Positions 1-7,289 of a stretch of DNA of 8,403 nt are shown in pieces. The notes under the pieces are model-generated. The model was given only the letters and a program-made list of their open reading frames with translations, was not told where the DNA came from and ran no database searches. Numbering within the stretch: the first letter of the stretch is position 1; every line of letters starts with the position of its first letter. The stretch spans positions 1-8,403 of the forward strand of contig JAQBPS010000200.1 in NCBI GenBank assembly GCA_028287415.1. The letters are read 5' to 3'. This DNA comes from Bacillota bacterium (GTDB lineage: Bacteria > Bacillota > Sulfobacillia > Symbiobacteriales > Symbiobacteriaceae). Made by a program: the position numbers and the translations under genes.

Positions 1-156
1 CGTGGACTTGCCGGCGCCGTTGTCCCCCAGCAGCGTGCTGACCTCGCCCGGATAGACCACGAAATCGGTCGCCTCCAGAGCTGTGACTTGGCCGAAGCGC
101 TTGCCGATACCACGCGCCTCGAGCACAGGAACGGCCCGACTCGCCTGCGCACTCAT
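1..156 (-). CDS. Sugar ABC transporter ATP-binding protein, N-terminal fragment (runs off left edge)
   Basis: Only the first 52 residues are in the window. They contain the opening strand of an ABC ATPase and a complete Walker A motif, GDNGAGKST, at residues 44-52, right at the window edge. The preceding segment ([16 protein letters not shown], residues 12-27) is typical of the ribose/xylose/galactose importers (RbsA/MglA type), in which one long protein carries two ATPase domains and powers monosaccharide uptake at the inner face of the membrane. The ATG at 156 overlaps the stop of the upstream aldolase as ATGA, and an AGGGGCG stretch lies just upstream, so translation is probably coupled. 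The permease and sugar-binding protein should lie further left. The family is secure; assignment to the ribose-type subclass rests on this short piece and on context. Confidence 0.88.
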
Positions 157-983
157 CGCAGCACGCCCCTGAACAGCCGAAGCTTTTCGGCGACCAGTTT
201 TTGCATGGCGCCACGGGCGGAGGTGAGGGCCTTGCGGGGGTCGATGGCGGCGGGGTCAGCTGCCAGGGCGCCGCGTAATGTGTGGGCATAGGCGGCCTTC
301 AGCTCAGTCCCGACGTTGATCTTGTTGATGCCTGCGGCAACGGCAGCCTGGATCTGCGCTTCGTCCACGTCCGAGCCCCCGTGGAGGACCAGTTCGCAGT
401 CCACCATTGCACGCATCGCCCTGATCCGCGCGATGTCGATCTGCGGACGCTCCTTGTAGAAGCCGTGGGCGGTGCCCACCGCCGCTGCCAGGGCGTCCAC
501 GCCGGTGAGGCGAGCGAACTCAGCCGCCTGTTCGGGCGGGGTCAGCCCTGCGCTCCCCCGATAGAGGCCCTCCTCAGTGCCGCCAATGACGCCGATCTCT
601 CCTTCCACCCAGACGCCGCAGGCGTGGGCCAGTTGGACCGCCTGGCGCGTCAGGGCGATATTTTCATCAAACGGGAGATGGGAGCCGTCGATCATCACCG
701 AGTTGAACCCAGCCTGGATGCATTGCACCACCGACTCCAGGCTTGAGCCGTGGTCCAGCTGGCTGTGTACCGGGACGGACGCGCTTTCCGCCGCCGCCCC
801 GAGCAGTGCCGCCATATAAGGAGCCCCGGCATACTTCAGCGCGCCTTCACTGACGAGGAGGATCACCGGCGTCTGCGCATCTTCCGCCGCCGCGACGACA
901 GCCCGGATGTCTTCCAGGTTGTTTACATTGAACCCGCCGATTGCCTCTCCCTGGCCCACCATACTGGTCCGGCGCACCCTCAT
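153..983 (-). CDS. Class II (zinc) ketose-bisphosphate aldolase, tagatose/fructose-bisphosphate type
   Basis: A 276-residue TIM-barrel aldolase that should cleave a ketose 1,6-bisphosphate (or an analogue) into dihydroxyacetone phosphate and an aldehyde. Visible family signatures are FNVNN (18-22), QLDHG (75-79, catalytic Asp77 and zinc ligand His78), GTAHG (170-174, zinc ligand His173), LHGGSD (200-205, zinc ligand His201) and INVGTELK near 220, where the dihydroxyacetone phosphate end is bound. The sequence SDV after LHGG, together with TELK, resembles GatY/KbaY tagatose-bisphosphate aldolases more than typical fructose-bisphosphate aldolases, which usually have SG there. The N-terminus is about five residues shorter than in GatY. 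The ATG at 983 lies 9 bases after the kinase stop, with an AGGCGAG site overlapping that stop; Met8 (962) is a less likely start. The pairing with the phosphofructokinase-like gene upstream supports a kinase-then-aldolase sequence. The exact sugar is not determined. Confidence 0.93.
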
Positions 984-992
984 GGCTCTCGC

Positions 993-5717: not shown

Positions 5718-6472
5718 TGGTCGATCGGCTGCGCCGGATCGTGGAACTCCTGCGGACCCATGGGAGCCTCTCCGTCGCATTTCTGGCCGGGGAGACGGGG
5801 GTCACCGAGCAGACGATCCGGCGTGACCTGGACCGCCTGGCAGCGCAGGGGCAGGTGATACGGAGCCACGGCGGTGCGACGCCGCCGCCGTCAGAACCGG
5901 GCGACGACTGCTTCACCGCCCGCCTGAGTCAGGCGGCAGATGCGAAGCGCCGCATCGCAATGGCAGCGGTCGCGCTCGTCCGGCCGGGCGAGCACATCAT
6001 GCTGGATGCGGGTACCACCACGCTGGCCATTGCCCGGCTCCTTGCCGGCCACGACCGGATCAAGGTGATCACCAACTCGGTGCCGGTGGCCACCGAAATG
6101 GCCCAAAGGCCCGCCAGCGACATTGTCCTGATCGGGGGGGAACTGAGGGTCAGCACGCTCTCCACCGTCGGGCCTATGGCCCGGGAGTCCTTTGGCAGGC
6201 TGCATGTCCAGAAACTCTTTCTGGCCGCGAGCGGCATCGATGCGGAGCGGGGCTTCACCAACAGCAACCTGGCGGAGGCAGAGATCAAGCAGGCGATGAT
6301 CGCCGCTGCCGAGGAGGTTTACGCCGTTGCGGACGGCAGCAAACTCGGACGGGTCTTGCTGTACTCCTTCGCAGCGATCGAACAGGTGAAGGCGCTGATC
6401 ACGACCGCGAACGCGCCCCATGAGGCACTCGAAGCGATCCGCATGCGTAATGTCGATGTAATTCTTGTGTAG
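5717..6472 (+). CDS. DeoR-family transcriptional regulator of sugar metabolism
   Basis: A 251-residue repressor with the standard two parts. The N-terminal winged helix-turn-helix covers roughly 4-54, with VTEQTIRRDL (29-38) as recognition helix and the IRSHGGA wing end (48-54). The C-terminal sugar-phosphate-sensing domain shows LDAGTTT (96-102), TNSVP (119-123), an IGGEL segment and ADGSK (205-209), the anion-binding loops shared with ribose 5-phosphate isomerase folds. Such regulators are usually released from DNA by a phosphorylated pathway intermediate. The ATG at 5717 shares one base with the isomerase stop (TGATG). This start gives the usual family length; the frame is open further upstream to 5651, but that part would be antisense-like filler before the helix-turn-helix. 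It sits inside the operon it probably controls, giving negative feedback. The likely binding region is the divergent promoter at 1962-2104. Confidence 0.94.
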   Translation: MVDRLRRIVELLRTHGSLSVAFLAGETGVTEQTIRRDLDRLAAQGQVIRSHGGATPPPSEPGDDCFTARLSQAADAKRRIAMAAVALVRPGEHIMLDAGTTTLAIARLLAGHDRIKVITNSVPVATEMAQRPASDIVLIGGELRVSTLSTVGPMARESFGRLHVQKLFLAASGIDAERGFTNSNLAEAEIKQAMIAAAEEVYAVADGSKLGRVLLYSFAAIEQVKALITTANAPHEALEAIRMRNVDVILV

Positions 6473-6497
6473 ATAGCCTGATAAGGAGTGGTACGAC

Positions 6498-7289
6498 ATG
6501 AGTTTCAGCGCCATGGGCAAGCAGCTGCGCCTCCGCCAGTTGGAGAACGCAGCGACGGGCAAGTCGGTCATCGTCGCTATGGATCATGGCTTGAACGGGG
6601 TCCCCGAAGGGTTCGGCGTGCCGGGCCCCGTGCTTTCCAGGGTAATCGCCGCCCGGCCTGACGGCCTGCTCGTGACAGCGGGCATGGCGGCAGCAAACCG
6701 GGAGGCCCTCGCCGGGGCCGGCTTGCCCCTGGTGATCGGCGTCGATTTTCCGATTTGGGAGAGCGGCCGGGCTCTGGCCGTGCGCCTGGGAACCACGGTG
6801 GAGACGGCCATGCAAGTGGGTGCCCACTGCATCAAGGCGATCCTGCTGATGGACGCAGCCCCCGGCGAGCTCAGCGCGAACTTGCAGTATATCGCCGGTC
6901 TGGCGGCTCGCTGCGAGGCCTGTGGCATCCCCCTGATGGTGGAGCCGGTCGCCTGGGACTGGGAGCGCACGGAGCCCGAGCGGGCCGGGCGGGCGGTGCT
7001 GGATGGGTGTCGCGTGGCGGTCGAGATGGGCGCCGACGTCCTGAAGGTGGGCGCCGTCGGCGGCAGCCAGGCGGTCCTGCTGGAAGCGGTTCGTAACGCC
7101 CCTGTGCCGGTCACGGTGCTGGGCGGGGCGCGGCGGGACCCGGAGAGCGTGCTTGCGGAAGTGCGGGTGGCGGCGGAGGCTGGGGCGTGGGGTGCGGTGG
7201 TGGGGCGCAACGTGTGGCAGCACCCTGAGCCGGAGCTGGTGGTGCGGGGGCTGGCGCAGGCGCTGGGTGCGGAGACGGCGCGGCACTAG
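6498..7289 (+). CDS. Class I aldolase, DhnA/LsrF (DeoC-LacD superfamily) type
   Basis: A 263-residue TIM-barrel protein of the family that includes archaeal-type class I fructose-bisphosphate aldolases, ADH synthase and the LsrF thiolase. The first strand has VAMDHG (26-31) with Asp29, and ADVLKVG (179-185) supplies Lys183, the likely Schiff-base lysine. VLGG and VVGRNVWQHPEP near the C-terminus match the phosphate-binding strands of the family. The ATG at 6498 is preceded by AAGGAG at 6483-6488 with a 9-base spacer, and there is a 25-base gap after the DeoR stop, so the gene is probably the last of the operon. It is unrelated in sequence and mechanism to the zinc aldolase at 153-983. Possible roles are retro-aldol cleavage of a ketose phosphate or bisphosphate made in this locus, or an LsrF-like thiolysis. 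The specific reaction is not assigned. Confidence 0.88.
   Translation: MSFSAMGKQLRLRQLENAATGKSVIVAMDHGLNGVPEGFGVPGPVLSRVIAARPDGLLVTAGMAAANREALAGAGLPLVIGVDFPIWESGRALAVRLGTTVETAMQVGAHCIKAILLMDAAPGELSANLQYIAGLAARCEACGIPLMVEPVAWDWERTEPERAGRAVLDGCRVAVEMGADVLKVGAVGGSQAVLLEAVRNAPVPVTVLGGARRDPESVLAEVRVAAEAGAWGAVVGRNVWQHPEPELVVRGLAQALGAETARH

Follow-up and report, generated by a model that had tools for sequence, protein, structure and literature searches.

The window analysed here, 8,403 nucleotides long, is the entire contig C273 (GenBank JAQBPS010000200.1) of a Bacillota bacterium of the Symbiobacteriaceae (class Sulfobacillia; assembly GCA_028287415.1, 4.1 Mb in 822 contigs, 77.8% complete). It carries a sugar locus in which two gene sets diverge from a 143-base gap (1962-2104), and we put at about even the chance that this locus takes up an aldose of manno or lyxo configuration and degrades it along two predicted routes in parallel, with the DeoR protein as the likely repressor. 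The features of the window are as follows.

1..156, minus strand: 5' end of an ABC ATPase gene of ribose/allose/autoinducer-2 (AI-2) type, 52 amino acids, the gene being cut by the contig end
153..983, minus strand: class II (zinc) ketose-bisphosphate aldolase, PF01116 311 bits
993..1961, minus strand: divergent phosphofructokinase (PFK) of the LGG subfamily, PF00365 233 bits
1962..2104: divergent intergenic region, with a sigma-70-like site on the minus strand at 2056-2028
2105..3091, plus strand: ROK sugar kinase, glucokinase-like, PF00480 236 bits
3084..3680, plus strand: GmhA-like SIS phosphosugar isomerase, PRK13936 224 bits, TIGR00441 198 bits
3677..5167, plus strand: FGGY sugar kinase, PF00370 and PF02782
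5154..5717, plus strand: cupin D-lyxose/D-mannose isomerase-like protein, PF07385 27.0 bits
5717..6472, plus strand: DeoR-family repressor, PF00455 174 bits, PF08220 55.6 bits
6498..7289, plus strand: class I (Schiff-base) DhnA/DeoC-type aldolase, PF01791 83 bits
7438-8235: regulator of the TetR family, separated by 148 bases from the class I aldolase gene that precedes it

The genes, their order and their families are read directly from the window, and domain matches confirm the arrangement proposed by an earlier sequence-only reading, with the ROK, SIS, FGGY, cupin, DeoR and class I aldolase genes on one strand and the PFK and class II aldolase genes on the other. That reading also counted three kinases of different folds; the ROK, FGGY and PFK families are all present, but ROK and FGGY kinases both belong to the actin-like ATPases, so that the folds are not three unrelated ones. 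Of the ribose-type ABC importer that it named, the window holds the 52-residue start of the ATPase, whereas binding protein and permease lie outside. Adjacent coding frames from ROK through DeoR overlap by 1 to 14 bases, the SIS start overlapping the ROK stop, and on the other strand the ATPase ATG overlaps the stop codon of the class II aldolase, so that by reading each side looks like one transcription unit. A single sigma-70-like site was found within 1900-2200, against 0.2 expected in shuffled sequences, as a consensus match only; no repeats were found in the divergent region (1950-2115 scanned), and an Rfam search of the window gave no match. The DeoR-family protein is likely the local regulator of the locus, and the TetR gene is not clearly part of it.

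Most of these families were observed together again in a distant phylum. (Labels outside the window, such as GH38, PfkB and FruK, come from BLAST to seed proteins, and other neighbours were mostly named by eye from the beginning of their protein sequences.) Taken as a whole, the window is matched best by L267, from a sample of the family Thermaceae, in which FruK, FGGY and ROK kinase genes occupy one strand and a regulator-like ROK-family gene, binding protein, permease, ATPase, PFK, class II and class I aldolases, PfkB and lyxose isomerase (PF07385, 314.8 bits) the divergent one, a recurrence which argues that the set is not accidental. Three further Thermaceae loci hold parts of it: PFK, class I aldolase, PfkB, lyxose isomerase and class II aldolase on a 4.7 kb contig (L073); PFK, class I aldolase, PfkB, lyxose isomerase, importer and ROK kinase in Meiothermus granaticius (L078); and FGGY, ROK, importer, PFK and class II aldolase in L266, where the stretch read showed no lyxose isomerase or class I aldolase.

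Two of the window's kinases group with those of these loci. In a tree of 51 FGGY rows (48 of them different), the window kinase falls into a nine-row clade (support 100/98) with L048, L063, L069, L038, L266, L267, L117 and L122; several clade rows are long branches and the internal details are unsure. A lyxose isomerase is present in 6 of the 9 loci of this clade vs 1 of the 42 other rows. The solved structures closest to the FGGY protein are a putative gluconate kinase and other FGGY kinases, and its best match is xylulokinase XylB (TIGR01312), at 270.3 bits under a cut-off of 380.25. The cupin, whose PF07385 match exceeds the cut-off of 20.8 and covers residues 123-172 only, has no match in NCBIfam and aligns over nearly its full length with solved D-lyxose/D-mannose isomerases (227 bits to 7nzo, 220 bits to 2y0o), with which it shares the cupin family; by this likeness of sequence it is predicted to have a D-lyxose/D-mannose isomerase-like activity. 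Lyxose-isomerase homologues are scarce otherwise: they occur in 3 of 61 relatives, own genome included, and the 17 loci retrieved with the SIS protein showed none.

Kinase and cupin together would also suit a pentose pathway, in which the cupin converts D-lyxose to D-xylulose and the FGGY protein, as an ordinary xylulokinase, feeds the pentose phosphate pathway, with ROK, SIS and PFK serving a separate hexose and the aldolases being accessory. XylB is the best match not only for the window kinase but also for those of L063, L266, L267 and L048, the cupin relatives carry the name D-lyxose isomerase, and the second lyxose-isomerase gene of the same genome adjoins a distant FGGY gene and an Aldolase_II (AraD-type) gene. 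We nevertheless regard this pathway as unlikely, given the unreached XylB cut-off (270 vs 380) and the alpha-mannosidase genes that accompany the same aldolase and isomerase families elsewhere. The product of xylulokinase is a 5-phosphate, and xylulose-5-phosphate requires no aldolase, yet this kinase or isomerase repeatedly has a class I aldolase as a neighbour. The second lyxose-isomerase locus (L007; contig C216, 2119-7734) also holds a sugar ABC ATPase.

The PFK of the window scores 218.4 bits on TIGR02482 (PFKA_ATP), far below the cut-off of 371.35, which the other PFK of the genome, a canonical one, passes with 397.7 bits. Its closest solved structures by sequence are 6-phosphofructokinases, and it retains in alignment the GGDGS and TIDND blocks of the PfkA family, from which it differs by LGG in place of MGR. 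In the PFK tree, the window and four Thermaceae cluster PFKs form a clade (97/100) to which neither the canonical PFK of the own genome nor the second copies of G445 and G446 belong, these being the two cluster genomes that contributed a further PFK to the tree; all five clade members have LGG, vs none of the 38 other rows, which have MGR or FGR. Among the 120 best of 317 matches in a protein search, 71 carry LGG (the window's own included), 47 MGR and 2 LGA, so that LGG marks a recognisable subfamily, and we take this position to touch the sugar or the transferred phosphate at the active site. Of 50 Thermaceae genomes, 4 (M. granaticius among them) have a PFK at least 62% identical to the cluster copy of that species. 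The closest database relatives among the matches listed are P0123 for the PFK (60%, among those with a longer contig) and P0242 for the FGGY kinase (67%); for each of them the longest contig given is 6707 bases long, a coincidence suggesting, without proof, that the two lie on the same contig. As the genome encodes a canonical PFK and two further class II aldolases, the copies at the locus are probably additional to housekeeping glycolysis.

The class I aldolase aligns with MJ0400, the archaeal class I fructose-bisphosphate aldolase (FBA) and LsrF, its closest solved relatives, and stays below the curated cut-offs for class I FBA (NF040816, 84.8 against 430), LsrF (PRK08227, 58.8 against 297) and ADH synthase (TIGR01949, 97.4 against 299.45; PRK07226, 119.9 against 241). 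The lysine of its GADVLK motif, which aligns with a lysine of 2qjg and 1w8s, is presumably the Schiff-base lysine of DhnA-type aldolases, and position 183 is at least 90% conserved in alignment A1. A second lysine, K113, is invariant in 26 of 26 members of the same alignment and missing from the aligned archaeal FBA. At E 1e-25 or better the gene was found in 23 of 398 genomes sampled from the phylum, and at E 1e-20 or better in 17 of 154 from the class, both counts including the own genome. It was not found in any of the 7 genomes listed for the family and order of the window, which makes the locus sporadic.

It is the neighbourhoods of this aldolase that point to a sugar. A scan of named genomes with the class I aldolase as bait confirmed 90 stretches, of which 80 were kept, giving 79 distinct loci; the neighbour comparison covered 104 loci including the window, with exact duplicate aldolases removed, a 9 kb range and some loci cut by contig ends. 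A lyxose/mannose isomerase lies near the aldolase in 13 of the 104 distinct loci, window included (a partial match at a contig edge in L091 was dropped by the overlap rule and is outside the 13), a GH38-like alpha-mannosidase in 14, and both in L051, L269 and L270, GH38 domains being confirmed by Pfam in L051 alone and assigned in the other loci by BLAST to L051. The first open frame of L053, taken by eye for an alpha-mannosidase, had no match to the GH38 seed and was not counted. Alpha-mannosidase-like neighbours thus suggest mannose in several loci, including L269 and L270 of the window's own class, and the gene neighbourhoods as a whole suggest manno-configured sugars, a sugar class absent from the sequence-only reading. 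L068 also has a cupin of mannose-6-phosphate-isomerase type (PF21621, 30.1 bits). On a quick aldolase tree, with SH-aLRT as its only branch support, the isomerase label requires 9 changes vs a shuffled mean of 12.5, a value as low being reached in 2 of 500 shuffles; at least 4 of the 9 are forced by starred branches, so several lineages acquired or retained the combination of isomerase and aldolase.

Two other settings of the aldolase were seen. Ten loci of Bacteroidota/Ignavibacteriota type (L066-L068, L070, L076, L077, L079, L081, L086 and L093) combine it with a PfkB kinase and a GH38-like alpha-mannosidase, and the three whose sequence was read completely, L068, L079 and L093, continue with a Gfo/Idh-like oxidoreductase (by eye) and with a protein of DUF455/ferritin-like type (by Pfam in L068). 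In L039-L044, L046 and L119, from Clostridia and one Anaerolineaceae genome, the aldolase is part of a conserved set whose other members are an amidohydrolase, alcohol dehydrogenase and FGGY kinase, one more conserved gene and, in all except the cut contig L043, a BMP-type importer protein; we take this set for a different pathway and do not recognise it.

The class II aldolase scores 266.5 bits on TIGR00167 (ketose-bisphosphate aldolase), above the cut-off of 215.6, and falls under the equivalog cut-offs for FBA and tagatose-bisphosphate aldolase; its closest solved structures are ketose-bisphosphate aldolases. Its tree shows no grouping with the Thermaceae counterparts, and we rejected it as a member of a co-inherited module. 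Beyond it, the ATPase fragment reaches 22.9 bits on PF00005, under the cut-off of 25, with LsrA, AlsA and YtfR as best partial matches in NCBIfam. No remainder of this ATPase was recognised in the own genome, where none of 72 ATPase matches begins after query residue 22, and a fully present importer was therefore rejected. LsrA being the best of the partial matches, and the FGGY kinase and class I aldolase matching LsrK and LsrF weakly, we also considered an Lsr-like system for AI-2 uptake and breakdown, in which these three would take the parts of LsrA, LsrK and LsrF. Such a system is highly improbable and was rejected on its scores, which are far below the cut-offs (LsrK 157.7 vs 528; LsrF as given above); the regulator is of DeoR type, and ROK, SIS, PFK, class II aldolase and lyxose isomerase are not known to have a place in that pathway.

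The remaining two enzymes would take the first two steps of one of the proposed routes. The ROK kinase scores 227 bits on TIGR00744 (cut-off 260) and is closest among solved structures to the glucokinases 3vgk and 2qm1. The SIS protein reaches neither GmhA cut-off (TIGR00441, 198.1 against 209.45; PRK13936, 223.7 against 276), is closest to the phosphoheptose isomerases 1tk9 and 1x92, and keeps the TxRIQE..H block (here TARIQE..H) with the neighbouring conserved GmhA blocks. It thus has the core of GmhA, from which it differs in adjoining sugar kinases. Its best three identities to GmhA-like proteins of the phylum are 54, 54 and 58%, and the SIS tree does not settle where it belongs. No type I mannose-6-phosphate isomerase was found in this 77.8% complete genome, a gap that the SIS protein could fill.

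GmhA-likeness is also what recommends a heptose as the substrate. The locus would then break down D-glycero-D-manno-heptose or sedoheptulose, with the SIS protein as phosphoheptose isomerase, the PFK as sedoheptulose-7-phosphate 1-kinase, the class II enzyme as sedoheptulose-bisphosphate aldolase and the FGGY protein as heptulokinase. The identity of up to 58%, the scores just under the NCBIfam GmhA cut-offs, the altered PFK motif and the retention of the TARIQE..H block, which is lost in the catabolic-looking L157 and L171, all agree with this. GmhB (TIGR00213), the partner of GmhA in heptose biosynthesis, had no match in the own genome, in a search weakened by the incomplete assembly and by only 1 of 14 control genomes passing the cut-off. 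We consider heptose breakdown rather improbable, however, as the Thermaceae loci, which hold most of the other genes, showed no SIS gene and the alpha-mannosidase linkage favours mannose. Quite improbable, too, is an undescribed catabolism of manno-heptose or sedoheptulose with the LGG PFK as a dedicated sedoheptulose-7-phosphate 1-kinase, the GmhA-like enzyme turned catabolic, and the FGGY kinase and class I aldolase acting on free heptulose. GmhA-like SIS genes do occur in other catabolic-looking settings, at L157 (8897-10344) beside a mannose-type phosphotransferase system (PTS; by eye) and a class I aldolase, and at L163 (8343-9796) and L171 (8909-13859) near a class II aldolase.

To return to the manno- or lyxo-configured aldose, we infer every catalytic step, the sugar and the phosphorylation positions from the enzyme families. 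Cupin lyxose/mannose isomerases and GmhA-type isomerases prefer aldoses of the manno and lyxo series, and under this proposal the sugar would most likely be D-mannose, or possibly D-lyxose or a manno-heptose. In the first route, the ROK kinase would phosphorylate the terminal carbon of the aldose, the GmhA-like SIS protein would convert the aldose phosphate to a ketose phosphate, the divergent PFK would phosphorylate this at C1, and the resulting bisphosphate would be cleaved by the class II aldolase to dihydroxyacetone phosphate (DHAP) and an aldehyde phosphate. In the second, the cupin would convert the free aldose to a ketose, the FGGY kinase would phosphorylate it (C1 is a guess, by which mannose would yield fructose-1-phosphate), and the class I aldolase would split the ketose phosphate into DHAP and an aldehyde. 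The locus may serve two related sugars, or one sugar through both routes. FruK-like genes elsewhere fit fructose-1-phosphate as an intermediate, and with it C1 phosphorylation in the second route: that of L267 overlaps the FGGY gene by 4 bases (TIGR03828 284.8, just under the cut-off of 292), and that of L062 lies between isomerase and aldolase (324.6, above the cut-off). None of the ten window proteins matched FruK or PfkB.

Several observations weigh against this proposal. The best match of the FGGY kinase is XylB, the binding protein of L267 scores best, under the cut-off, as a ribose/allose type, and for the Thermaceae ROK proteins the best match is allose kinase (188-196 bits, cut-off 253). 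The four cluster loci of the Thermaceae showed no SIS gene, and about 10 of the 17 loci retrieved with the SIS protein have neighbours that by eye resemble heptose or surface-sugar biosynthesis. The class I aldolase family also stands beside a nucleoside-like importer and an amidohydrolase elsewhere, the quick aldolase tree puts the window on a long, unsure branch, and the stretches read around the lyxose-isomerase homologues of L007, G002 and G056 held no class I aldolase. The class II aldolase, besides being ungrouped, is no closer to the Thermaceae proteins (47-48% identity) than to the other copies of its own genome (47-49%), and the absences of a type I mannose-6-phosphate isomerase and of GmhB are weak because the genome is 77.8% complete.

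A further doubt concerns the unity of the locus, which the sequence-only reading had made depend on left and right sets being conserved together. In the homologous loci, this stands in part: L267 unites both sets, and PFK accompanies the class I aldolase and the lyxose isomerase in L073 and L078. Of the 12 loci other than the window that have a class I aldolase near a lyxose/mannose isomerase, however, 9 lack both PFK and class II aldolase. Together with the ungrouped class II aldolase, this makes the right-hand isomerase-kinase-aldolase trio the more widespread core, to which the left set is added optionally. The same two observations, and the absence of the class I aldolase from the 7 listed relatives, would also be expected if two unrelated sugar operons merely abutted without a common pathway. 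We find this improbable, since PFK, FGGY, ROK, both aldolases, lyxose isomerase and importer reunite in L267, in another phylum, where PFK and FGGY share clades with the window genes.

The component families and sugar catabolic loci as such are already known. Pathways for GalNAc and tagatose (Aga, Gat) use a SIS enzyme, a tagatose-6-phosphate kinase, a class II aldolase of KbaY/GatY type and the DeoR regulator AgaR. The window likewise has a SIS protein, a class II aldolase and a DeoR regulator, but it has no deacetylase or PTS gene, its SIS protein is GmhA-like, and its DeoR protein does not reach the AgaR cut-off (185.9 vs 260). A haloarchaeal fructose route is described that proceeds through ketohexokinase, 1-phosphofructokinase and FBP aldolase (PMC11519228), and it resembles the proposed second route in its free ketose, C1 phosphorylation, triose cleavage and dedicated gene cluster. 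As described there, the haloarchaeal ketohexokinase belongs to the ribokinase/PfkB superfamily, whereas the window kinase would be an FGGY protein; its fructose comes from sugar alcohols via dehydrogenases, whereas the ketose here would come from an isomerase; and its cluster includes FruK, which the window lacks. In open-access literature, with most subscription journals outside the search and the PFK motif itself not queried, we recognised no description of this set of genes, of the FGGY clade or of a PFK subfamily with LGG.

If the proposal is correct, the locus would represent a sugar-breakdown module present in Bacillota and Deinococcota, with its isomerase-kinase-aldolase part also in Chloroflexota and Thermotogota. 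Members of the FGGY clade and of the TLGGxTG PFK subfamily may today be misnamed as xylulokinase and 6-phosphofructokinase. It would also become testable whether bacteria degrade mannose via free fructose and fructose-1-phosphate, or use heptoses.

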